From Pseudomonadota bacterium (GTDB lineage: Bacteria; Pseudomonadota; Gammaproteobacteria; Burkholderiales; Burkholderiaceae), in assembly GCA_029777935.1 (NCBI GenBank), contig JAKORH010000305.1, positions 1 through 19,462 of the forward strand: 19,462 nt of DNA. Reading direction: 5' to 3'. The stretch's first letter is position 1. Each line of letters starts with the position of its first letter. Position numbers and translations under genes: made by a program. Below, piece by piece: positions 2,595-17,704 of this stretch. The notes under the pieces are model-generated. The model was not told the DNA's origin and made no database searches. It worked only from the letters and a program-made list of their open reading frames with translations.

Positions 2595-3311
2595 ATGCGC
2601 TCGGCGACCTCGCCTCATTCGCGCGCCGGCAAGCCCGCGCGCATGCGGTTGCGCCAGCGCGCCGACCGGCAGAAGGTTCCGCTCGGCAAGCTCGCCACCG
2701 AGGAACTGCGGCGCGCCATCCTGACCGGCCGCTATCGCCCGGGCGAGCGACTGGTCGAGGACCGGCTGTCGGAGGAACTCGGCATCTCGCGCGTGCCGAT
2801 CCGCGAGGCCTTGCGGATGCTCGCCGGCGACGGGCTGGTCGACGTGCGGCCGAATCGCGGCGCTGCAGTGGCCGACGTTTCGTCCGCGGTGGCGCGCGAC
2901 CTGATCGAGGTGCGGGCCACGCTCGAAGCGCTGAATGCGCGACTCGCGGCGCGGCACCATCGGCCCGAAATCATCGCGGCGCTGCGCGAAGTGCTCGTGG
3001 CCGGCAACGCGGCAGCGGTCAAGGGCCACGTCGGTGATCTCGTGCGCCTGAACGCCGAGTTCCACGACAAGCTGGCCGAGGCGGGTCGCAACGCGATCCT
3101 GTGGGACATCATGCGCACGCTGCGCGAGCGCACCGGGCTCGTGTTCGCGCGCAACACCGCGGCGCGCGCGAAGCAGGACTGGGACGAACACTCGCGCATC
3201 CTCGCCGCAGTGATCGATGGCGACGAGGAACTCGCCGCGCTGCTGGCAGCGCGCCATGTGCACCGCGCGGGCGAGGCCGCGCTTGCGGCCACGCAGAAGG
3301 CGGCGCCATGA
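2595..3311 (+). CDS. GntR-family transcriptional regulator, FadR subfamily (FCD domain)
   Basis: A 238-residue DNA-binding regulator. A winged helix-turn-helix spans roughly residues 32-95 (LATEELRRAILTGRYRPGERL, LSEELGISRVPIREALRML, GLVDVRPNRGAAV). The FCD effector domain follows at about 100-225. Likely metal-ligand histidines are visible at H157 (LNAEFH), H199 (WDEHSRI) and H221 (ARHVH); the usual preceding Asp is Asn153 here. Such regulators typically repress an organic-acid catabolic operon and release on binding the acid. It is embedded in the operon it probably controls and overlaps the next gene by an ATGA. The first 20 residues are basic and variable; ATG 2643 is a possible alternative start. 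Confidence 0.92.
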   Translation: MRSATSPHSRAGKPARMRLRQRADRQKVPLGKLATEELRRAILTGRYRPGERLVEDRLSEELGISRVPIREALRMLAGDGLVDVRPNRGAAVADVSSAVARDLIEVRATLEALNARLAARHHRPEIIAALREVLVAGNAAAVKGHVGDLVRLNAEFHDKLAEAGRNAILWDIMRTLRERTGLVFARNTAARAKQDWDEHSRILAAVIDGDEELAALLAARHVHRAGEAALAATQKAAP

Positions 3312-4177
3312 AGCTGCAGAACTCGTTCATCCTGCGCCAATACCTGCGGCCGCGCGCGCTGCCGAGCACATGGTGCCCCGGCTGCGGCCTGGGCATCATC
3401 ACCAGCGCGATCGCGCAGGCGGTGCACTTCACGGGGCTCGAGAAGAACGGCGTGGCGATGGTGTCCGGCATCGGCTGCACCGGCCGCATGTCGGGCTACG
3501 TCGACTTTCACACGCTGCACACCACGCACGGCCGCGCGCCGGCGTTCGCCACCGGACTGAAGCTGGCGCGGCCCGGGATGACCGTGATCGTCGTGATGGG
3601 CGACGGCGATTCGATGTCGATCGGGGGCAACCACCTGATCCACGCGATGCGGCGGAACATCGGGCTCACCGCAATCGTCGTCAACAACGCGGTGTACGGA
3701 CTCACCGGCGGGCAGGTGTCGCCGACCACTCCGGTCGGCGGCCGCACCACGACCTCCGCGCCCGGCTCGTTCGAGCGGCCGCTGAACCTCGAGACGCTGG
3801 CACGCGCGGCCGGGGCGGCTTTCTACGCGCGCGCCACCGTCAATCACACGGCGGCGCTCACCAAGCTCATCGAGCGCGCGCTGCGGGCGCCGGGCTTCGC
3901 GCTGGTCGAGGTGATCAGCAACTGCCACGTGCTGTACGGCCGCATGAACGAGCTGGGTGACGCCGCGCAGATGATGAAATCGATGGATGCGCAGACGCGA
4001 CGCGTGAATCCGGTGCTGCTCAGGCGCGCCGCGCTGCCGCTGCGCCTGTCCGCCGGCGCTGCGCCGGCGCCGATGCAGCCCGATGCGCGCGTGCCGCGCG
4101 GCGTGATCTTCGAGCGGCGCGGCGCGGCCGACTACGCGCAGCGCTATCGGGCGCTGGTCGACAAGAGCGACGCATGA
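3308..4177 (+). CDS. 2-oxoacid:ferredoxin oxidoreductase, TPP-binding beta subunit (KorB-like)
   Basis: A 289-residue beta subunit of a pyruvate/2-oxoglutarate-type ferredoxin oxidoreductase, which converts a 2-oxoacid plus CoA to acyl-CoA, CO2 and reduced ferredoxin. Visible marks are the WCPGCG motif (Cys23, Cys26), GIGCTGR at 54-60, the thiamine pyrophosphate/Mg motif GDGDSMSIGGNHLIHAMRRN starting at 98, the paired asparagines 126-127 and GLTGGQVSPTTP at 131-142. All residues expected for an active cofactor site are there. The ATG overlaps the GntR stop (ATGA), and the stop overlaps the next ATG the same way, so translation is coupled. The motif set is closest to 2-oxoglutarate-type KorB, but the real 2-oxoacid is not proven. 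Confidence 0.93.
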   Translation: MKLQNSFILRQYLRPRALPSTWCPGCGLGIITSAIAQAVHFTGLEKNGVAMVSGIGCTGRMSGYVDFHTLHTTHGRAPAFATGLKLARPGMTVIVVMGDGDSMSIGGNHLIHAMRRNIGLTAIVVNNAVYGLTGGQVSPTTPVGGRTTTSAPGSFERPLNLETLARAAGAAFYARATVNHTAALTKLIERALRAPGFALVEVISNCHVLYGRMNELGDAAQMMKSMDAQTRRVNPVLLRRAALPLRLSAGAAPAPMQPDARVPRGVIFERRGAADYAQRYRALVDKSDA

Positions 4178-4431
4178 CCGTCGTCGAACGCGGCATCTAC
4201 CGCATCAACCTGTACCGCGAGCTGTGCAAGGCGTGCGGGCTGTGCGTGGCGTGGTGCCCGCAGTCCGTGCTGGTGGCGGACGCCGCGGGCTACCCCGTAG
4301 CGGCGCACCTCGGGGCGTGCGTGAACTGCAAGGCGTGCGAGCGCCACTGCCCCGACTTCGCGATCGAAGTGATTCCTCCCGAGCCGGAAAGCGAGACCGC
4401 CGATGTCGAACGTCTGCTTCATGCACGGTAA
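4174..4431 (+). CDS. 2[4Fe-4S] ferredoxin, delta subunit of the oxidoreductase (KorD-like)
   Basis: An 85-residue electron carrier with two classical cluster motifs: CKACGLCVAWCP (cysteines 18, 21, 24, 28) and CVNCKACERHCP in the second half. Each has C-x2-C-x2-C-x3-C-P spacing. This is the usual delta subunit of four-subunit 2-oxoacid:ferredoxin oxidoreductases and would take electrons from the cluster/TPP site of alpha-beta. It overlaps the beta gene by four bases and the alpha gene by 29 bases, so it is part of the same translation unit. It differs from the second ferredoxin at 8259, whose second motif has an eight-residue insert. Confidence 0.92.
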   Translation: MTVVERGIYRINLYRELCKACGLCVAWCPQSVLVADAAGYPVAAHLGACVNCKACERHCPDFAIEVIPPEPESETADVERLLHAR

Positions 4432-5536
4432 CGAAGCGGTCGCCGAAGGCGCGATCGCCGCCGGCTGCCGCTTCTATGCCGGCTACCCGATCACGCCGTC
4501 GACCGAAATCGCCGAAATCCTGTCGGGCCGTCTGCCTGAAGTCGGCGGCGTGTTCATCCAGATGGAAGACGAGATCGCCAGCATGGCGGCGATCATCGGC
4601 GCGTCGCTGGGCGGCCTGAAGAGCGCGACCGCGACCAGCGGCCCGGGCTTCTCGCTGATGCAGGAGAACCTCGGCTTCGCGGTCGCGGCCGAGATTCCGT
4701 GTGTGATCGTCAACGTGCAGCGCGTGGGACCGAGCACGGGGCTGCCGACCAAGGCCGCGCAGGCCGACGTGATGCAGGCGCGCTGGGGCACGCACGGCGA
4801 CCATCCGATCATCGTGCTGGCGCCGTCGAGCGTGCAGGAGGCGTACCGGCTGACCGTGCGCGCGTTCAATCTGTCGGAGCGCTTCCGCACGCCGGTCGTG
4901 CTGCTGATGGACGCGATCGTCGCGCAGCTCAAGGAAAGGGTCGAACTCGACGGCGCGCCGCCGGCCTTGGCGCGGCCGGCGCCGGCCGAGCCGCCGTCCG
5001 CGTACAAGCCGTTCGCGTTCGGTGCCGGCGAGGTGACGCCGCTGGCGTCGTTCGGCAGCGACTATCGCTACCACGTGACCGGGCTGCTGCACGACGAGCA
5101 TGGCTTTCCGACCGAGAACCCGGAAGTCGTCGCGCGCTGGTGGCAGCACATGAACGCCAAGATCGACCGCCACCTCGACGAGATCCTGCAATGGGAGGAA
5201 AGCGATCTCGACGACGCCGAGGTCGCGCTCGTCGCCTACGGTGCGACGGCGCGCTCGGCCGCGCACGCCGTGACGCTGGCGCGCGCACAGGGCATCCGCG
5301 CCGGACTCTTCAAGCCGCTGACGCTGTGGCCGTTTCCCGAGGCCGCGCTGCGCGCATTGGCCGCGCGCACACCCAGGCTGATCGTCGCCGAGATGAACCT
5401 CGGACAGATCCGGCTCGAGGTCGAGCGCCTCGCCGCCGGGCGCGCGCGAGTCGAGGGCGTGCACCGCGCCGACGGGCTGGCGATCACGCCCGAGCAGATC
5501 CTGGCGGCGATCGAGACCGCGCCGAGTACGCAATGA
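4403..5536 (+). CDS. 2-oxoacid:ferredoxin oxidoreductase, alpha subunit (KorA-like)
   Basis: A 377-residue alpha subunit holding the pyrimidine-binding half of the TPP site. It starts with GNEAVAEGAIAAGCRFYAGY and has YPITPSTE (28-35), the acidic MEDEIASM segment with the conserved Glu near 54-57, TSGPGFSLM (78-86), RVGPSTGLPTKAAQ, and a C-terminal domain II with GATARSA, KPLTLWPFP and EMNLGQ. It has the length of a stand-alone alpha chain, without the N-terminal gamma domain found in some KorA proteins; gamma is instead encoded at 5736. The start at 4403 gives a 29-base overlap with the ferredoxin gene; ATG 4421 is an alternative closer to the conserved core. The stop at 5534-5536 overlaps an ATG at 5533. 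Confidence 0.93.
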   Translation: MSNVCFMHGNEAVAEGAIAAGCRFYAGYPITPSTEIAEILSGRLPEVGGVFIQMEDEIASMAAIIGASLGGLKSATATSGPGFSLMQENLGFAVAAEIPCVIVNVQRVGPSTGLPTKAAQADVMQARWGTHGDHPIIVLAPSSVQEAYRLTVRAFNLSERFRTPVVLLMDAIVAQLKERVELDGAPPALARPAPAEPPSAYKPFAFGAGEVTPLASFGSDYRYHVTGLLHDEHGFPTENPEVVARWWQHMNAKIDRHLDEILQWEESDLDDAEVALVAYGATARSAAHAVTLARAQGIRAGLFKPLTLWPFPEAALRALAARTPRLIVAEMNLGQIRLEVERLAAGRARVEGVHRADGLAITPEQILAAIETAPSTQ

Positions 5537-5739
5537 AATTCGAAGCAACCGTTCGGCTGCCCTGTCATGCCCGCGAACGCGGGCATCCAGTGACGTTGGG
5601 TGTGCCGGATTCCCGCTTCCGCGGGAATGACACCTCGAATGCCGTGTCGTCCCCGCGCAAGCGGGGACCAAGTGTCTTTCGCGCAGAGTCTCTGGATTCC
5701 CGCTTGCGCGGGAATGACACGAGAGTGCGGCTCACATGA
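5533..5739 (+). CDS. Possible 68-codon frame made of REP-like repeats, bridging korA-like and fusion genes
   Basis: The gap between the alpha gene and the fusion gene is open for 68 codons. It begins with an ATG whose ATGA overlaps the alpha stop and ends with a TGA that overlaps the next gene's ATG (5736-5739). Its peptide is the kind encoded by REP-like palindromes (DSRFRGND, SPRKRGPS, DSRLRGND). No clear ribosome site of its own is seen, so any translation would depend on coupling from the gene before. A folded product is unlikely; a role in keeping ribosomes moving across the repeat is possible. It may also be chance, because these palindromes often leave a frame open. Confidence 0.25.
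   Translation: MKFEATVRLPCHARERGHPVTLGVPDSRFRGNDTSNAVSSPRKRGPSVFRAESLDSRLRGNDTRVRLT
5566..5716. repeat. Cluster of four REP-like palindromes
   Basis: Four short hairpins stand in a row: 5567-5586 (ATGCCCGC/GCGGGCAT), 5609-5628 (ATTCCCGC/GCGGGAAT), 5650-5667 (TCCCCGC/GCGGGGA) and 5696-5715 (ATTCCCGC/GCGGGAAT). Each has a four-base loop. Short conserved flanks (GTCAT before, CCAG or CTGGA and TGACAC after) show they are units of one family in alternating orientation. They fill the only large gap in an otherwise overlapping operon and could act as mRNA stabilisers, attenuators or gyrase/IHF-type sites. They are not CRISPR: there are no equal-length unique spacers. Confidence 0.88.
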
Positions 5740-6971
5740 GCGACGACCGCGCCTTTGCCACCAACTGGCAGCTCCTGCTCGACAGCATCTGCGCGGTGAC
5801 GGGCACCCTCGATCCGCGCGAGCCGCCGATCGTCCTGTCGAGCCTGCCCGACCTGCCGTACCGGCGCGACGCGCGCAACGGACCGGCGCCGCTGTCGTTC
5901 ATCCAGGGACCGCCCGGGCGCAACATCGCGCTGGCGATCGGCTTGCGCGCAGCGAAGCCGGCCACGCCGCTGGTGCTGATCATGAACTCCGACAGCGTCA
6001 CGCTCGGCACCAATCACCTGATCCACGCCGCGCGGCGGAACATCGGCATGACACTGCTGCTGTTGCGCGCCGAGCTGACGCGCACGGCGCAACTCGACCG
6101 CACCGGATGGGAAGTACCGGCGCAGCAGAAGGCGCTCGAGGCGCCATCGCGACCGCTCGACTGGGTGACCGCGCTCGGCGCAGCGCTGGTCGGCCGCGGC
6201 AATCTGAACGAGCCGGACGAACTGGCGCGCCTCCTTGCGCGCGCGCTCGCCACGCCGGGCTTCTCGGTGCTCGGCGTGACGGTCGATCCGTCGCTGCCCA
6301 CCGGCGTGCTGAACGAGGCGCCGTGGCCCGAGTACTTCACTGCGTATCGCGACTGGGCCGCGCCGCTGCGCGCCGGGCCGGCCGGGCCTCCAACGTGCAG
6401 CGCACCGGCGCTGGCGCGCGCGCAACCGCGCTACGAAGTGCGCATCGCCGGCTTTGGCGGGCAAGGCGTGAAGCTCGCCGGCACCGTGCTCGGCGAAGCC
6501 GCCGTGTTCGAAGAAGGACTGTGGGCCACGCAGCGCGGCGACTACGGTTCGGCCACGCGGGGCGGGCCGAGCATGGTCGACGTGGTGATCGGAGCCGATC
6601 CGATCACGTATCCGAACGCCGACCATCCCGACGCGCTGGTCGTGCTGACGCAGGCCGCCGCCGACCGCTACGCGCGGGGGCTGAAGCCCGGTGCCCACGT
6701 GATCGCCGATGCCACCGAAGTCAAGCGCACGCCGCAAGGCGCGATCACGGTGCCGATCACGCAACTGGCGCGCGAGCACACCGGCAAGCCGATCGCCGCC
6801 GGCGTGGTCGCGCTCGGCTGCGTGGCGGCGCTGACCGAGGCGGTCTCGGCCGATGCACTGGAACGCAGCCTCGCGCGCCACGTGCCGCACGGCAGCGTCG
6901 ATCGCAACATCGCCGCGTGTGCGGCGGGATTCGCCGCCACGCGCGCGGCATTGCAGGGAGTCGTGTCATGA
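5736..6971 (+). CDS. Fusion of a TPP-motif-less KorB-like domain with a 2-oxoacid oxidoreductase gamma subunit (KorC-like)
   Basis: A 411-residue two-domain protein. The C-terminal part (about 232-410) is a typical gamma subunit: YEVRIAGFGGQGVKLAGTVL from 233, QRGDYGSATRGGPS, VDVVIGADPITYP, then the PDALVVL segment. The N-terminal part (about 1-210) resembles the beta subunit encoded at 3308. Its TNHLIHAARRNIGMT (92-106) matches GNHLIHAMRRNIGLT there. However, the GDGD of the TPP/Mg site is NSDS (84-87), the two asparagines are RA (111-112), the GLTGGQ stretch is absent and so is the CPGC motif. This domain therefore should not bind TPP and is probably structural or regulatory. The start ATG overlaps the stop of the repeat-derived frame, with only a weak GAGAG ribosome site; the stop overlaps the next ATG. 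Confidence 0.85.
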   Translation: MSDDRAFATNWQLLLDSICAVTGTLDPREPPIVLSSLPDLPYRRDARNGPAPLSFIQGPPGRNIALAIGLRAAKPATPLVLIMNSDSVTLGTNHLIHAARRNIGMTLLLLRAELTRTAQLDRTGWEVPAQQKALEAPSRPLDWVTALGAALVGRGNLNEPDELARLLARALATPGFSVLGVTVDPSLPTGVLNEAPWPEYFTAYRDWAAPLRAGPAGPPTCSAPALARAQPRYEVRIAGFGGQGVKLAGTVLGEAAVFEEGLWATQRGDYGSATRGGPSMVDVVIGADPITYPNADHPDALVVLTQAAADRYARGLKPGAHVIADATEVKRTPQGAITVPITQLAREHTGKPIAAGVVALGCVAALTEAVSADALERSLARHVPHGSVDRNIAACAAGFAATRAALQGVVS

Positions 6972-8251
6972 GTCGAATCGTCATCACCGGCGGCGGCTGG
7001 GCGGGATGCGCGGCGGCATTGGCGGCGCGCCAGGCCGGCGCCGAAGTCGTGCTGCTCGAACGCAGCGACAGCCTGCTGGGCACGGGGCTGGTCGGCGGCA
7101 TCATGCGCAACAACGGCCGCTTCACCGCCGCCGAGGAAATGATCGCGCTCGGCGGCGGTGCACTGTTCGAGGTCTGCGACGCGAACTCGCGCCACCGCAA
7201 CCTCGCGTTTCCGGGCCATCAGCACGCGTCGATCTACGACGTGGCGTGGATCGAGCAGGGCGTGAAGCAGAAGCTGCTTGCCGCCGGCGTGGAGATCTGG
7301 CTGCTCGCCCGTGTCAACGGGCTCGTCAAGCCCAACGGCGCGATCCGCGCGGTCAAGCTCGAGAACGAGACGGCGATCGAGGGCGACGTGTTCGTCGACA
7401 CCACCGGATCGTTCGGGCCGCAAAGCTTCTGCACCGAGGCCGGCAACGGCTGCGTCATGTGCATCATGCGCTGCCCGACCTTCGGCCCGCGCGCGAGCGT
7501 CACCGGGCTGGCCGGCATAACGGAGAAGCAGGGCCGCAAGGCCGACGGTACGGTCGGTGCGATGAGCGGCTCGTGCGAATTCTCCAAGGACACGCTGGCG
7601 CCCGAGCTGGCCCACAAGCTGGAGCGCGAAGGGCTGCTGGTGATTCCGCTGCCGTCGCAGCTCGTCGACGAGAGCAAGCTCGCCGGCAAGGCGTGCCAGC
7701 AGTACGCGTCCGGCGACTACGCGCGCAACATCATCGTGCTCGACACCGGGCGCGCGAAGCTGATGACCTCGCACATGCCGCTGCACCAGTTGCGCCAGGT
7801 GGCGGGTTTCGAGAACGTGCGCTACGACGATCCGTACGCGGGCACGCTCGGCAATTCGATGCGCTACGCCGCGCTGTCGCCGCGCGACGACGCGATGCAG
7901 GTGCAGGGCGACGTCGACAACCTGTTCTGCGGCGGCGAGAAGGCGGGACTGCTGGTCGGTCACACCGAGGCGATCGTCACCGGCACGCTGGCCGGCCACA
8001 ACGCCGTGCGCAAGGCCGCCGGCAAGGCGCTGCTGACGCTGCCCGACACGCTCGCGGTCGGCGATGCGATCGCGCACGTGCGCGATCGCATGCAGACCGA
8101 CGCCGGCATGCGCGAGAAGTACACGTTCTCCGGCGCCGGCTACTTCAGGCGCATGCAGGAGCGCGACCTGTACACGACCGACGTGGCGAAGCTGCGCCGG
8201 CGCGTCGCCGCCGCGGGGCTCGCCGGCGTGTTCGCGCAGCCCGTGCAGTGA
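6968..8251 (+). CDS. FAD-dependent oxidoreductase with a cysteine cluster
   Basis: A 427-residue flavoprotein. The N-terminal dinucleotide fold is clear: IVITGGGWAGCAAALAARQAG (from residue 4) ending in the acidic VVLLE (27-31). The C-terminal FAD segment LFCGGEKAGLLVGHTEAIVTG (319 onward) resembles the TrmFO/MnmG (GidA-like) fold. Between them lie cysteines 155, 162, 165 and 169 in the pattern C-x6-C-x2-C-x3-C-P, which looks like an iron-sulfur ligand set. A tRNA role is unlikely given the place. ATGA overlap with the fusion gene and the ferredoxin just behind suggest it exchanges electrons with the 2-oxoacid oxidoreductase. Known precedent: the 2-oxoglutarate oxidoreductase of Azoarcus evansii carries FAD and reduces NADP. 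I cannot say this protein is the same; its acceptor is unknown. Confidence 0.85.
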   Translation: MSRIVITGGGWAGCAAALAARQAGAEVVLLERSDSLLGTGLVGGIMRNNGRFTAAEEMIALGGGALFEVCDANSRHRNLAFPGHQHASIYDVAWIEQGVKQKLLAAGVEIWLLARVNGLVKPNGAIRAVKLENETAIEGDVFVDTTGSFGPQSFCTEAGNGCVMCIMRCPTFGPRASVTGLAGITEKQGRKADGTVGAMSGSCEFSKDTLAPELAHKLEREGLLVIPLPSQLVDESKLAGKACQQYASGDYARNIIVLDTGRAKLMTSHMPLHQLRQVAGFENVRYDDPYAGTLGNSMRYAALSPRDDAMQVQGDVDNLFCGGEKAGLLVGHTEAIVTGTLAGHNAVRKAAGKALLTLPDTLAVGDAIAHVRDRMQTDAGMREKYTFSGAGYFRRMQERDLYTTDVAKLRRRVAAAGLAGVFAQPVQ

Positions 8252-8258
8252 GACGCCG

Positions 8259-8519
8259 ATGGCGTACATGGTCTCCTGCGAGTGCATCAACTGCAGCGCG
8301 TGCGAGTACGAGTGCCCGGTGCGCGCGATCCGCGCCGGCGCGAGCCAGTACATGATCGACGCCGCAACCTGCGTCGAGTGCGACGGCTACTTTCCCGTCG
8401 CGCGCTGCAAATCGGTGTGTCCGGTCAATGCATGCTCGCCGTTGCGCGAGAGCTATCAGTTCAAGATGCGCAGCCTCGCCAACCGCGGCGCGCCGCCCGT
8501 GGTGCTGCGCGCGCCATGA
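8259..8519 (+). CDS. 2[4Fe-4S] ferredoxin, YfhL/Allochromatium-type
   Basis: An 86-residue ferredoxin. The first motif is CINCSACEYECP (C-x2-C-x2-C-x3-C-P). The second has the insert typical of Allochromatium-type ferredoxins: CVEC, eight residues, then CKSVCP, with an extra Cys shortly after (VNAC). These ferredoxins usually have at least one very low-potential cluster. It starts seven bases after the flavoprotein stop and overlaps the next gene by ATGA. It is the second ferredoxin of the operon; its place next to the FAD protein rather than next to alpha-beta suggests the two work together. The ribosome site is weak (GAGACGCCG). Confidence 0.92.
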   Translation: MAYMVSCECINCSACEYECPVRAIRAGASQYMIDAATCVECDGYFPVARCKSVCPVNACSPLRESYQFKMRSLANRGAPPVVLRAP

Positions 8520-13113: not shown

Positions 13114-14358
13114 ATGGATCACTTCACCCGTCGCGACGCACTGAAAGCGGCACTGGCGCTGGGAACCGCGCCGCTGGTGGCCACGCCGGTCCTCTCGTAC
13201 GGCGCGGGCGAGAAGCCGATCCGCATCGGCATGCACGATCCGCTGACCGGCACCTACGCCGCCGAGGGCGACAGCGAAGTGCGCGGCGCGAAGCTGGCGC
13301 TGGCCGAAGTCAACGCCGCCGGCGGCATCCTCGGCCGCCAGGTCGAACTCATCGTCGAAGACGACAACGCCAACGCGGGCCTCGCCGCTCAGAAGGCGCA
13401 CAAGCTGCTCGAGAAGGACCAGTGCGACATGCTGATGGGCGCCGTGTCGTCGGCCACCGCGCTGTCGGTCAACCAGGTCGCACACCAGAAGGGTACGGTG
13501 TACATGGTTACGGGCGGGCACACCGACCCGGTGACCGGCAGCCAGTGTCACTGGACGACGTTCCGCATCTGCACGACTACGTACATGCTCGCCAACGGGC
13601 TCGCCGGGACTCTGTACAAGAAGTTCGGCGGCAAGTGGTACTTCATCACGCCCGATTACGCCTACGGCCACACGCTGCAGGAGGCGTACGCGAAGATCCT
13701 TAAGTCGATGGGCGGCACCGTGCTCGGCAACTCGCTGTCGCCGCTCGGCACGACGGACTTCTCCTCCTATCTGATCAAGGCGCAATCGACCAATCCGCAG
13801 GTGCTGGTCCTGCTGGTCGACGGCCAGGATCTGCTCAACTGCATGAAGCAGGCGGTCCAGTTCGGGCTGCAGAGGAAGATGCCGATCGGTGGCGGCCTGT
13901 CCGAGCTCGAGGTGCTGCGAGCGCTGCCGCCCGAAGCCCGCCTGGGCTGGTGGACGCTCGAGTGGTACTGGAACCAACCCGGCACGCCGCACGTCAAGGA
14001 ATGGGTCGATCGCTACCGCAAGGCCTATCCGGACGGCAGCTATCCGAGCGCGCGCACGTGGTTCGGCTACGCGGGACTGCACGCGCTGGCGCTCGGCGCG
14101 GCGCGCGCCAAGAGCATCGAGCCGGTGAAGTTCGCGAAGGGGCTGGAGGGCCTCGAGCTGCCGCCGCAAGTGAAGCTGCAGCCGAACAAGGTGTACTTCC
14201 GCCCCGGCGACCACCAGCTCATGTCGAGCGAGTTCCCCGGCGAGATCATCGCCAAAGGCAAGTATCCCGACCTGTTCAAGGTGGCCGAGATCGTCCCCGG
14301 CGACAAGGCGGCGCTGCCGGAGAGCGAGACCGGCTGCAAGCTCGACTATCCGATGTGA
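13114..14358 (+). CDS. Branched-chain amino acid-type ABC substrate-binding protein (HAAT family)
   Basis: A 414-residue periplasmic type I binding protein. It starts with a twin-arginine signal: TRRDALK at 5-11 followed by a hydrophobic stretch to about 28. The mature part has IRIGMHDPLTGTYAAEGDSE, GAKLALAEVNAAGGILGRQVE, EDDNANAGLAAQKAHKL, GAVSSATALSV, WYFITPDYAYGH and LVDGQDLLNCMKQA, all typical of LivJ/UrtA-like proteins. Tat export is common for these in Proteobacteria. It heads the operon with livHMGF-type genes behind it. The family binds amino acids, urea, short amides or aromatic acids; the ligand is not deducible here. The SQCHWTTFRICTTTYML stretch is typical of the relatives annotated only as amide/amino acid binding proteins. 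Confidence 0.93.
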   Translation: MDHFTRRDALKAALALGTAPLVATPVLSYGAGEKPIRIGMHDPLTGTYAAEGDSEVRGAKLALAEVNAAGGILGRQVELIVEDDNANAGLAAQKAHKLLEKDQCDMLMGAVSSATALSVNQVAHQKGTVYMVTGGHTDPVTGSQCHWTTFRICTTTYMLANGLAGTLYKKFGGKWYFITPDYAYGHTLQEAYAKILKSMGGTVLGNSLSPLGTTDFSSYLIKAQSTNPQVLVLLVDGQDLLNCMKQAVQFGLQRKMPIGGGLSELEVLRALPPEARLGWWTLEWYWNQPGTPHVKEWVDRYRKAYPDGSYPSARTWFGYAGLHALALGAARAKSIEPVKFAKGLEGLELPPQVKLQPNKVYFRPGDHQLMSSEFPGEIIAKGKYPDLFKVAEIVPGDKAALPESETGCKLDYPM

Positions 14359-14440
14359 CCGTCCGCCGCGCCCCGCGCGGCCGCCGCGGTTCGCCCGCGG
14401 TTCGCCTGACCGAACCCCGGTTTCCGGGAAGGCCTGCTGA

Positions 14441-15310
14441 ATGGAGCTGCTGCTGTTCAACGTGTTCAACGGCCTCATTCAGGGGGCGTTCTATGCACTG
14501 ATGGCGCTGGGCCTCGCGCTGATCCTGAGCCTGAATTCGGTCATCAACATGGCGCACGGCGGCTTCCTGGTCATCGGCGCCTATCTCGCCTATACGCTCG
14601 AGCCATACCTGGGCTTCTGGGGCGCTCTGGTCGCGGGGCCGCTGGCGGCGTGCGCGATCGGGCTGGTGGTGGAGCCGATCCTGATCCGCCCGCTGTACAA
14701 GCGGCCCGATCCGCTCTACACGCTGCTGCTCACCTTCGGCCTGGCGCTGGTGATCGAGGACGTCACGCGTCGGATCTGGGGGCCCGCCGGCCTGCCGTTC
14801 CAGGTGCCCGACGTTCTGAACTCGCCGGTCAGCAGCGTGCTGTTCTTCATCACCGGCTATCGGCTGCTGGTGGTGGGCATCGTCGCCGTCGCCGCGTTCG
14901 CGTTGTACCTGCTGTTGCGGTACACGCGGCTCGGCGTGCGCATCCGCGCCGGAACGCTGGACCTCGAGACGGTCTCCGCGCTCGGCGTGAACATCTACCT
15001 GCTGCGCGCGCTGAACTTCGGCCTCGGCTGTCTGCTCGCGGGTCTCGCGGGGGTGCTGGCCGCGGGCGTGCTCGGGCTGACGCCGCCGATGGGCAACAGT
15101 CTCATCATGCCGAGCTTCGTCGCCATCATCGTCGGCGGCATCGGCAGCCTAGTCGGCAGCATCCTCGGCGGCCTGATCATCGGCACGGCGGCCGGCATCG
15201 CCACGACCTACTATCCCGCCGCGAGCGAGGCCGTGATCTACCTGATCATGCTGATCGTGCTGGTGATCCGCCCGCGCGGACTGCTGGGGCAGGAAGGCCT
15301 GTTCGAATGA
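14441..15310 (+). CDS. livH: Branched-chain amino acid-type ABC permease (LivH-like)
   Basis: A 289-residue inner-membrane permease with about eight membrane segments. Marks of the family are NVFNGLIQGAFYALMALGLA at the start, the NMAHGGFLVIGAYLAY segment (about 37-52), a cytoplasmic loop with RYTRLGVRIRAGTLDLETVSALGVN that contacts the ATPase, and GGIGSLVGSILGGLIIG. GGGAAGG-like GGGAAGG at 14426-14432 gives a ribosome site eight bases before the ATG. The gene is 82 bases after the binding protein; that gap is GC-rich with short inverted repeats but no clear terminator. It overlaps the next permease by ATGA. Confidence 0.95.
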   Translation: MELLLFNVFNGLIQGAFYALMALGLALILSLNSVINMAHGGFLVIGAYLAYTLEPYLGFWGALVAGPLAACAIGLVVEPILIRPLYKRPDPLYTLLLTFGLALVIEDVTRRIWGPAGLPFQVPDVLNSPVSSVLFFITGYRLLVVGIVAVAAFALYLLLRYTRLGVRIRAGTLDLETVSALGVNIYLLRALNFGLGCLLAGLAGVLAAGVLGLTPPMGNSLIMPSFVAIIVGGIGSLVGSILGGLIIGTAAGIATTYYPAASEAVIYLIMLIVLVIRPRGLLGQEGLFE

Positions 15311-16251
15311 CATGGCGCCGCGGCGCGTCCGCCGTGCTCTGGCTCGCGCTCGCGCTGCTGCCGTTCTGGCTGCCTTACGCGGGCGGTTACACGGCCCTGG
15401 GCACCAAGATCCTCGTCTATGGCCTCGCGGCGCTGGCGCTGAACCTGCTGCTCGGTTTCACCGGCGGCCTGTCGTTCGGCCACGCCGCGTACTTCGGGCT
15501 CGGCGCCTACGGGGCGGGGATGACGCTCAAGTACCTGGCGCCGTCGACGCCGCTCGCGATCCTGGTCGGCACGCTTGCGGGCGGCATCGCCGCCACGCTG
15601 CTGGGGCCGCTGGTGATGCGCCGGCGCGGCATCTACTTCGCGATGATCACCATCGCGATCGGCCAGCTCTTCTACTTCGTCGCCGTGCGCTGGAACGGCG
15701 TCACGGGAGGGGAGGACGGACTGGCCGGATTCGAGCGGCAGCCGCTGCATTTCGGCGGCTGGGCGTTCGACGTGCGCGACGACACGAAGTACTACTACCT
15801 CGTCTTCGTCTGCTTCGTCGTCGCCGTGTTCATCATGCGCCGCCTGCTCGCGTCGCCGCTGGGACACACCTGGCTCGCGATCCGCGAGAACCGCCGCCGC
15901 GCGCAGTTCCTCGGCGTGCGCAGCGATCTGTACCTTTGGGCGGCGTTCGCCGTCTCCGGCCTGTTCGCGGGGCTCGCGGGAACGCTGAACGCGCTGCTGT
16001 TCAACTTCACCTCGCCGCAGGACCTGCACTGGATCCTGTCCGGCGACTTCGTGATCATGATCGTGCTGGGGGGCATGCGCCGCTTCTGGGGCCCGCTGCT
16101 CGGCGTCGTGATCTTCGTGGTGGCGCAGGACTACCTGTCGAGCCTGACCGACAACTGGATGACGTTCATCGGCCTGCTGTTCGTGCTGATCGTGCTGCTG
16201 TTTCCCAGGGGCATCCTCGGGATGGTCGCGCGGCGCGGGGGTGCCTCGTGA
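15307..16251 (+). CDS. livM: Branched-chain amino acid-type ABC permease (LivM-like)
   Basis: A 314-residue second permease subunit. It has about eight membrane segments, the LNLLLGFTGGLSFGHAAYFGL motif (about 47-67), RRRGIYFAMITIAIGQ, the ATPase-contact loop SPLGHTWLAIRENRRRAQFLGV, and the closing GGMRRFWGPLLGV and LFPRGILGM. The start ATG overlaps the livH stop; the stop overlaps a GTG. The size is the common short LivM form without long extensions. Confidence 0.95.
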   Translation: MTWRRGASAVLWLALALLPFWLPYAGGYTALGTKILVYGLAALALNLLLGFTGGLSFGHAAYFGLGAYGAGMTLKYLAPSTPLAILVGTLAGGIAATLLGPLVMRRRGIYFAMITIAIGQLFYFVAVRWNGVTGGEDGLAGFERQPLHFGGWAFDVRDDTKYYYLVFVCFVVAVFIMRRLLASPLGHTWLAIRENRRRAQFLGVRSDLYLWAAFAVSGLFAGLAGTLNALLFNFTSPQDLHWILSGDFVIMIVLGGMRRFWGPLLGVVIFVVAQDYLSSLTDNWMTFIGLLFVLIVLLFPRGILGMVARRGGAS

Positions 16252-17003
16252 GCATGCTGCGTCTCGCCGGCGTCAGCCGTCACTTCGGCCGGCTGCAGGC
16301 CGTCCAGGATCTGACCTTCGAGATGCGCGAGGGCGAGCTGCGCGCGATGATCGGACCCAACGGCGCGGGCAAGACGACGTTCTTCAATCTCATCACGGGG
16401 TTCGTCGCGCCGAGCGCCGGTCGCATCTGGTTCGACGGGCGCGAGATCGGCGAGCTGCCGGTCGTGAACCGGGTGCGGCTGGGCATCGTGCGGACCTTCC
16501 AGATCACCGAGGTGTTCCACGACCTGTCGGTCTACGAGAACGTGCGCTTCGCCGTGGAGACCGCCGCCGGACTGAATGCGCGACCGTGGCTGCCGCGCGC
16601 GGCGCGCGCCGAGGTCGCGCGGCGCATCGACGAGTTGCTCGGCGCGGTGGGCCTCGAAGACAAGTCGGCGCGCGTCGTCGGCGAACTGCCGCACGGCGAC
16701 CAGCGCGTGGTGGAGATCGCGCTGGCGCTCGCGATGAATCCGCGGCTGCTGCTGCTCGACGAACCAACGGCCGGGATGGGGGACGCGGAAACCGAGCGCA
16801 TGGTCGAGCTCGTGCGGCGCCTGCATGCCGAACGGAAGCTCTCGATCCTGTTCATCGAGCACGACATGAGCATCGTGTTCGGCATCGCGCAGCGCATCAG
16901 CGTGCTCGATCGTGGCCGCCTGCTGGCCGAAGGAACGCCCGCGGAGATCTCGTGCCACGATCAGGTGCGCGCCGCCTATCTCGGCGAGGCGGCGGCGCAA
17001 TGA
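16248..17003 (+). CDS. livG: Branched-chain amino acid-type ABC ATPase (LivG-like)
   Basis: A 251-residue ATP-binding subunit. Walker A is GPNGAGKT (36-43), the Q-loop region reads VRTFQITEVF, and the signature is LPHGDQR (147-153), a variant of the usual LSYGDQR of LivG. Walker B ends with Asp171-Glu172 in LLLLDEPTAGM, and the H-loop is in FIEHDMS. I chose the GTG at 16248 because its GTGA overlaps the livM stop, as at the other junctions; an ATG two codons later is equally workable. The C-terminal YLGEAA is typical of LivG. Confidence 0.95.
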   Translation: MSMLRLAGVSRHFGRLQAVQDLTFEMREGELRAMIGPNGAGKTTFFNLITGFVAPSAGRIWFDGREIGELPVVNRVRLGIVRTFQITEVFHDLSVYENVRFAVETAAGLNARPWLPRAARAEVARRIDELLGAVGLEDKSARVVGELPHGDQRVVEIALALAMNPRLLLLDEPTAGMGDAETERMVELVRRLHAERKLSILFIEHDMSIVFGIAQRISVLDRGRLLAEGTPAEISCHDQVRAAYLGEAAAQ

Positions 17004-17704
17004 GCTCCATGCTGCAAGCACGAGAGGTCCACGCCTTCTACGGCAAGAGCCACATCCTGCACGGCGTCTCGCTCGACGTCGGCGAGGGCGAGATCGTGGC
17101 CGTGCTCGGGCGCAACGGCGCCGGCAAAACCACCACGCTGCGCAGCCTGATGGGATTGACTGCCCCGCGCGAAGGCAGCGTCACGCTGCTCGGCAAGGAC
17201 GTTACGCGCTGGCCGGCCTACCGGATCGCGCGGCTCGGCGTCGGATACGTGCCGGAGGGGCGCCGGATCTTTCCGAACCTCACCGTGCTCGAGAACCTGC
17301 GCGTTCCCGCGGTGCGCTCCGGGCCCTGGAGCCTCGAGCGCGTGTTCGCGCTGTTTCCGCGCCTGGGCGAGCGCAAGGGCCAGCTCGGGCGGCAGCTCTC
17401 GGGCGGCGAGCAGGAGATGCTCGCCATCGCGCGCCCGCTGCTGCTCAACCCGCGCATCGTGCTGCTCGACGAGCCGTCGCAGGGACTGGCGCCGCTCGTG
17501 GTGCAGGAAGTGATGAACGTGGTTCGGGCGATGCGCGGGGAAGGGCTCGCCGTGCTGCTGGTGGAGCAGAACGTCCCGCTGTCGCTGAGCGTGGCCGACC
17601 GCGCCTACATCCTCGACGACGGCCGCGTCGCCTATGCGGGTACGGCCGCCGCGCTCGAACAGGAGCGCGAGCTGGTGCACAAGCTGGCCGGCGCGACGGC
17701 GTGA
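17000..17704 (+). CDS. livF: Branched-chain amino acid-type ABC ATPase (LivF-like)
   Basis: A 234-residue second ATP-binding subunit. Walker A is GRNGAGKT (37-44), the signature LSGGEQ (133-138), Walker B IVLLDE (153-158), followed by PSQGLAPLVVQEV and the H-loop position occupied by Gln in LLVEQNVP, as is normal for LivF. YVPEGRRIFPNLTVLENL is the family hallmark. It overlaps livG by ATGA and ends the operon. Eight bases later a decayed ABC exporter fragment begins on the other strand. Confidence 0.95.
   Translation: MSSMLQAREVHAFYGKSHILHGVSLDVGEGEIVAVLGRNGAGKTTTLRSLMGLTAPREGSVTLLGKDVTRWPAYRIARLGVGYVPEGRRIFPNLTVLENLRVPAVRSGPWSLERVFALFPRLGERKGQLGRQLSGGEQEMLAIARPLLLNPRIVLLDEPSQGLAPLVVQEVMNVVRAMRGEGLAVLLVEQNVPLSLSVADRAYILDDGRVAYAGTAAALEQERELVHKLAGATA

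Follow-up and report, generated by a model that had tools for sequence, protein, structure and literature searches.

A beta-like domain without Mg-TPP ligands joined to the gamma subunit in a predicted FAD-coupled 2-oxoacid:ferredoxin oxidoreductase operon

The OFOR operon and its fusion gene

The window, by which we mean the whole stretch of 19,462 nt that was analysed, carries the genes of a 2-oxoacid:ferredoxin oxidoreductase (OFOR), a family in which the alpha and beta subunits together use TPP to decarboxylate a 2-oxoacid oxidatively, yielding an acyl-CoA (Table 1). Alpha (POR_N, PFOR_II), beta (TPP domain with CPGC, GDGD and NN) and gamma (POR) are all encoded here, which makes up the gene set of an OFOR complex. 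The GntR/FCD-family gene that runs into the start of beta is perhaps the regulator of the operon. The beta gene, which a sequence-only reading of the same DNA had called the true beta gene, has each of its motifs in place, and the four cysteines, GDGD and NN are present in 10 of 10 true betas from operons of this type.

Table 1. Features of the OFOR locus, in nucleotide positions of the window.
Feature	Position	Strand	Description
GntR/FCD-family regulator	2595..3311	+	Pfam FCD and GntR above cut-off; overlaps beta start by 4 nt
True OFOR beta	3308..4177	+	CPGC, GDGD, NN, GLTGGQ intact; PF02775 E 7.4e-34; 8ys5_C E 7.9e-67
Ferredoxin-like delta subunit, two [4Fe-4S] type	4174..4431	+	Fer4 families; best NCBIfam is OGOR_delta, below cut-off
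OFOR alpha	4403..5536	+	POR_N, PFOR_II; NCBIfam PRK08659 560 bits vs cut-off 411
Alpha-fusion gap, 199 nt	5537..5735	.	three palindromic repeats
Pseudo-beta domain	5736..6371	+	residues 1-212; fold of a beta subunit, lacking Mg-TPP ligands and cluster cysteines
Gamma-subunit domain	6429..6950	+	residues 232-405; complete
FAD protein	6968..8251	+	MnmG/GidA-like fold; invariant cysteines C155, C162, C165, C169; 4-nt overlap with fusion gene
Second ferredoxin	8259..8519	+	YfhL-like, below YfhL model cut-off
Small protein, 67 aa	8516..8719	+	4-nt overlap with second ferredoxin; no Pfam family

Positions 5736-6971 encode one protein of 411 residues, in which gamma is preceded by a second beta-like domain, hereafter called pseudo-beta. 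The sequence-only reading had described the N-terminal half as beta-like and the C-terminal half as an intact gamma subunit, and both descriptions hold: by structure comparison residues 1-212 have the fold of a TPP-binding OFOR beta subunit, which also settles the match that had been looked for across residues 1-230, and residues 232-405 form a complete POR domain with the gamma fold. The placement of the two domains relative to each other is unsure because the predicted structure of the fusion has a pTM of 0.52. In the annotation names, which come from one source, such a protein is a plain gamma subunit, and under that label the extra domain stays hidden.

Three palindromic repeats of the ATTCCCGCTTnCGCGGGAATGACA type lie in the gap between alpha and the fusion gene and occur nowhere else in the window at up to three mismatches, and none would be expected in shuffled sequence. 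In nine other loci alpha and the fusion gene either overlap by 4 nt (eight loci) or stand 9 nt apart (L002); the gap is peculiar to the window and lies outside the mechanism considered below.

The FAD protein and the second ferredoxin, which the sequence-only reading had left out, travel with the fusion: in 11 of 11 loci, the window included, the FAD gene has a counterpart of this ferredoxin after it. The FAD protein scores 27.4 bits against the MnmG equivalog model, well short of its cut-off of 524.85, though the fold matches; its predicted structure is weak (pLDDT 69), and the alignment of FAD proteins excludes L003. Proteins of this kind are also found without this OFOR (L048-L053, and a second copy in L010 at 5373-7065), where they lie next to genes resembling acetolactate synthase and, in some loci, molybdenum hydroxylase, and it is therefore not certain that the FAD protein is a bound subunit. 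The second copy in L010 has its own ferredoxin, and no second ferredoxin was found alongside the FAD genes of L048-L053, so that joint movement of FAD gene and ferredoxin fits L010 only.

Further downstream, open reading frames resembling the 67-residue protein were seen in L001, L002, L004, L007 and L008 in a motif-limited look, making six of 11 loci with the window. A protein of 502 residues encoded at 9362-10870 matches DUF4139 alone, just below cut-off (30.2 of 31.8 bits).

Distribution, selection and origin of the fusion

The window's own protein and 119 others, the best 120 of 161 above threshold, were aligned, and 119 of the 120 cover both domains well. Genome contigs, when scanned, yielded 23 loci, 10 of them with the fusion, and the remaining 13 have separate beta and gamma genes (12 loci) or gamma alone (L019). 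The two genes are also separate in L026, from another search. The protein set and the genome loci overlap, as with P0123 and L006. By the titles of their metagenome-assembled genomes (MAGs), which may be incomplete or mixed, the fusion loci belong to Betaproteobacteria (Rubrivivax; L001, L002), Acidimicrobiia (L003, L008), Anaerolineae (Anaerolineales; L004, L007, L010), Gammaproteobacteria (L005), Phycisphaerales (L006) and Pseudomonadales (L009). The fusion recurs beside OFOR genes in a constant order of six genes, namely beta, ferredoxin, alpha, pseudo-beta/gamma, FAD protein and ferredoxin, in 10 of 10 loci that could be followed on both sides, window included, and true beta is intact in 10 of 10. 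L003 stands outside the gene-order count, its contig beginning within alpha.

Each of nine genomes searched has one full-length match to the fusion. Three genome samples, with the best 6 to 9 candidates scored in each genome, gave one carrier apiece: 1 of 300 in the order of G001, 1 of 198 in the class of G007, and 1 of 298 in that of G003. In every case this carrier is the genome at the centre of the search. A second match in the last of these samples (G314) consists of separate genes with beta intact. The fusion is rare but widely scattered among bacteria. In a plasmid collection 14 records matched, all to the gamma part, and none covers 80% of the query.

Selection on the pseudo-beta domain was compared with that on gamma and true beta in the same four pairs of loci. 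The dN/dS values are 0.075, 0.25, 0.44 and 0.26 for pseudo-beta, 0.078, 0.26, 0.32 and 0.32 for gamma, and 0.12, 0.17, 0.31 and 0.23 for true beta; pseudo-beta exceeds true beta in three of the four pairs, with L004/L007 showing the opposite. These codon comparisons show purifying selection on pseudo-beta. An artefact of assembly or a frameshift, or a fusion confined to this one genome, which the sequence-only reading had named as grounds for giving up its claim, can be set aside, as 119 of the 120 aligned proteins have the fusion, 10 genome loci besides the window carry it, and dN/dS is below 1.

No clean stand-alone pseudo-beta turned up among the 14 matches of 0.55 to 1.75 times the query length obtained with residues 1-214, 11 of which were inspected as sequences. 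Four of the 14 have a gamma domain, three run into the first gamma residues, two are ordinary betas, and five are short fragments, stopping within the domain or just past what looks like a frame change, that are uninformative on a stand-alone form. One pseudo-beta piece (P0132), in which the reading frame seems to shift, lies on contigs of up to 8.5 Mb and may be a damaged copy within a chromosome that is nearly complete. An active beta fused to gamma was likewise not found in the searches, which went by sequence similarity as opposed to domain architecture.

In a tree of 42 rows and 204 columns, from which the catalytic columns were omitted, the 17 pseudo-beta rows group in one clade with support of 100/100, and the 10 operon betas in a clade of their own with 98/99. 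The stem of the pseudo-beta clade is very long, at 2.16 changes per column, which leaves room for a role unrelated to that of beta. The path from the window to L001 measures 0.56 for pseudo-beta vs. 0.16 for true beta. Forcing operon beta and pseudo-beta together gives a p-AU of 0.298, or 0.268 with L026 added, values that neither establish nor reject such a clade and are to be read with the very long stem. The duplicated beta subunit from which the sequence-only reading derived this domain may have been the operon's own. L004 with L007, and L005 with L009, pair in both clades, as expected if beta and pseudo-beta travel together.

Active-site residues and the proposed role of pseudo-beta

In the description of the Sulfolobus tokodaii OFOR in PMC5020499, the GDG of residues 89b-91b and Asn118b help to bind the Mg ion of TPP. 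Asn118 corresponds to the second N of the NN motif, since the spacing of 28 agrees. Neither the GDG Asp nor the Asn 28 residues further on is found in residues 1-212 of the fusion. The Mg-binding Asp is absent in 120 of 120 aligned proteins (N in 91, A in 20, S in 8, G in 1). The earlier description of GDGD as turned into NSDS is right as to this loss, but its register is one residue off, and the second Asp of the motif (Asp86) is D in 120 of 120. The loss of both asparagines of NN that had been reported stands: the first (position 111) is R in 118 of 120 proteins, with H and Y once each, and none of the 120 has the Mg-binding Asn, which is replaced by S (80), A (33), E (3), R (2), F (1) or W (1). 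Position 113 carries an acidic residue, E or D, throughout the same 120.

The alignment of loci likewise bears out the earlier statement that CPGC and the GLTGGQ loop are gone from pseudo-beta. At four columns where 10 of 10 true betas have Cys, it is absent from 11 of 11 pseudo-betas, and residues 1-212 lack the four cysteines of the proximal [4Fe-4S] cluster. The first 215 residues contain no Cys in 42 of the 120 proteins and one to four in the other 78. The beta segment GR...GxNHLIHAxRRN is still present.

We read the six adjacent genes as a distinct subfamily of FAD-coupled OFOR in which pseudo-beta is a predicted non-catalytic part, probably serving to dock, to hold gamma and to tune the enzyme, and we give this reading a probability of about 0.6. 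Alpha and true beta, as predicted from the family, would catalyse the TPP-dependent conversion of a 2-oxoacid to an acyl-CoA, and electrons would exit via the beta cluster and then the delta ferredoxin, probably going onward to the second ferredoxin and the FAD protein. The fourth gene would supply gamma joined to a beta-like domain without Mg-TPP and Fe-S ligands, whose retained beta surface (GR, GxNHLIHAxRRN) most likely docks it beside alpha or true beta. Once docked, pseudo-beta would hold gamma in position and tune the active site or the docking of redox partners. Conservation of the dead copy among distantly related bacteria makes a part in assembling or controlling the enzyme probable. 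Its role would probably be structural or regulatory, as the sequence-only reading had proposed for a complex with one active and one dead beta-type chain.

The pocket may instead have been re-used, with Arg111, Glu/Asp113 and the kept Asp86 binding CoA, a nucleotide or an effector, so that pseudo-beta would be a sensor and not a scaffold. The conserved Arg and acidic replacements argue against mere decay and make a new ligand possible. The Arg-acidic pair may, however, merely stabilise an empty site, and stretches 118-125 and 134-138 of pseudo-beta are predicted at pLDDT below 50; on balance we regard re-use of the pocket as the most credible of the alternatives and still unlikely. Less probable again is an asymmetric complex, alpha2-beta-(pseudo-beta/gamma), in which pseudo-beta takes the place of one true beta and leaves one live and one dead site. 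In the S. tokodaii OFOR, as described in PMC5020499, two alpha-beta protomers pair to a dimer whose TPP sites are 16.5 A apart. The asymmetric arrangement would agree with the retained GR...GxNHLIHAxRRN segment and with the single alpha gene of the operon, but it would result in only one gamma per two alphas. That pseudo-beta is a passive remnant, a beta copy caught by the fusion and tolerated while idle, possibly from an active korB-korC fusion (of the kind reported for archaea in PMC11237513) whose beta half died, would agree with its faster divergence than true beta (the window-L001 path), yet it is highly improbable given residues invariant in 120 proteins and a dN/dS well below 1 and near that of gamma in all four pairs.

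OFORs are central to carbon metabolism, and a subfamily in which gamma carries a conserved dead copy of the catalytic subunit offers a natural test of whether the two TPP sites of an OFOR dimer depend on one another, and of the part played by gamma's position.

Related systems and metabolic context

The beta and gamma domains match chains of the four-subunit 2-oxoglutarate:acceptor oxidoreductase OorDABC of Helicobacter pylori (8ys5) by sequence and fold. There the two are separate chains, whereas here a second, TPP-less beta sits on gamma, and genes for an FAD protein and a second ferredoxin are added. In the Magnetococcus marinus OFOR (6n2n_A) a gamma-type domain heads the 572-residue alpha chain, and its beta is catalytic. 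A gamma-type domain likewise heads the alpha chain of the S. tokodaii OFOR (5b46-5b48), whose betas are catalytic, unlike pseudo-beta. The nearest non-fused relative in the class search (G314, loci L026/L039; E 1.2e-73 across the adjacent beta and gamma genes) has separate alpha, beta and gamma, ordinary and with active-site motifs intact.

An OFOR core with an extra FAD subunit occurs in PadEFGHI, the NADH-dependent phenylglyoxylate dehydrogenase, and in the 2-oxoglutarate:NADP oxidoreductase of Azoarcus. The genes here fall far below the Pad equivalog models (PadE 48.3 of 300 bits, PadG 72.4 of 700, PadI 28.5 of 700) among the best 25 of 78 families, with no PadH model among the matches listed, and the FAD protein looks MnmG-like, unlike that of the Pad system.

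Fusions of korB to korC and of korA to korC are described in archaea (PMC11237513). The korB-korC fusion of cluster 368 likewise joins beta and gamma of a 2-oxoglutarate oxidoreductase in one protein, with a domain order that is alike by name alone, and the passage on it, compared here by description, mentions neither a lost TPP site nor a true beta apart from the fusion, nor an FAD gene (PMC11237513). The fusions considered here come from MAGs of bacteria and have an intact beta next to them, those of PMC11237513 come from archaea. A dead relative complexed with a live enzyme is known in the prozyme of trypanosome AdoMet decarboxylase; that is a different enzyme, for which complex formation and activation are demonstrated (PMC5201418), whereas for pseudo-beta a place in a complex is predicted. 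The sequence-only reading knew of no enzyme with such a build. The archaeal reports in PMC11237513 qualify that statement, since they already show beta joined to gamma. The combination of a TPP-dead beta on gamma with an intact beta alongside was not found among the titles and abstract openings listed from the open-access literature, and within that scope it appears to be the new part.

Hints as to the substrate come from neighbouring genes. A piperideine-6-carboxylate dehydrogenase scores above cut-off near the operon in L001 (6155-7696), L004 (13190-14707), L009 (3788-5278) and L010 (13091-14614), and L007 has a counterpart by clustering, which makes five of 10 complete loci, or four when the near-identical L004 and L007 are counted once; the window is not among these. 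Other neighbours are, in L001, a protein resembling saccharopine dehydrogenase; in L002, a member of the ornithine-cyclodeaminase family; in L004, a member of the proline-racemase family together with an acyl-CoA dehydrogenase; in L009, a member of the glutamate-dehydrogenase family; and in L005 and L010, proteins of the DAO type. The L010 protein exceeds the cut-off for glycine oxidase ThiO, an enzyme of thiamine synthesis, which weakens the amino-acid reading. The window's own neighbour is an aldehyde dehydrogenase (ALDH) fragment nearest the 2-oxoglutarate-semialdehyde type, below cut-off. Our guess is that the OFOR works in the breakdown of lysine or cyclic amino acids, via 2-oxoadipate or via 2-oxoglutarate from its semialdehyde.

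Joining this context to re-use of the pocket, one might picture the dead beta as a sensor whose Arg-rebuilt pocket binds a metabolite or CoA and switches an oxidoreductase, FAD-coupled and acting on 2-oxoadipate (or 2-oxoglutarate), that serves lysine- or proline-type breakdown in bacteria that are for the most part uncultured. We consider this combination improbable; were it true, it would amount to a previously undescribed FAD-coupled oxidoreductase of amino-acid breakdown. Finally, positions 13114-17704 of the window carry, on the same strand, genes resembling those of an ABC transporter of the branched-chain amino-acid type (binding protein by Pfam, permeases and ATPases by eye), which may supply the OFOR substrate.
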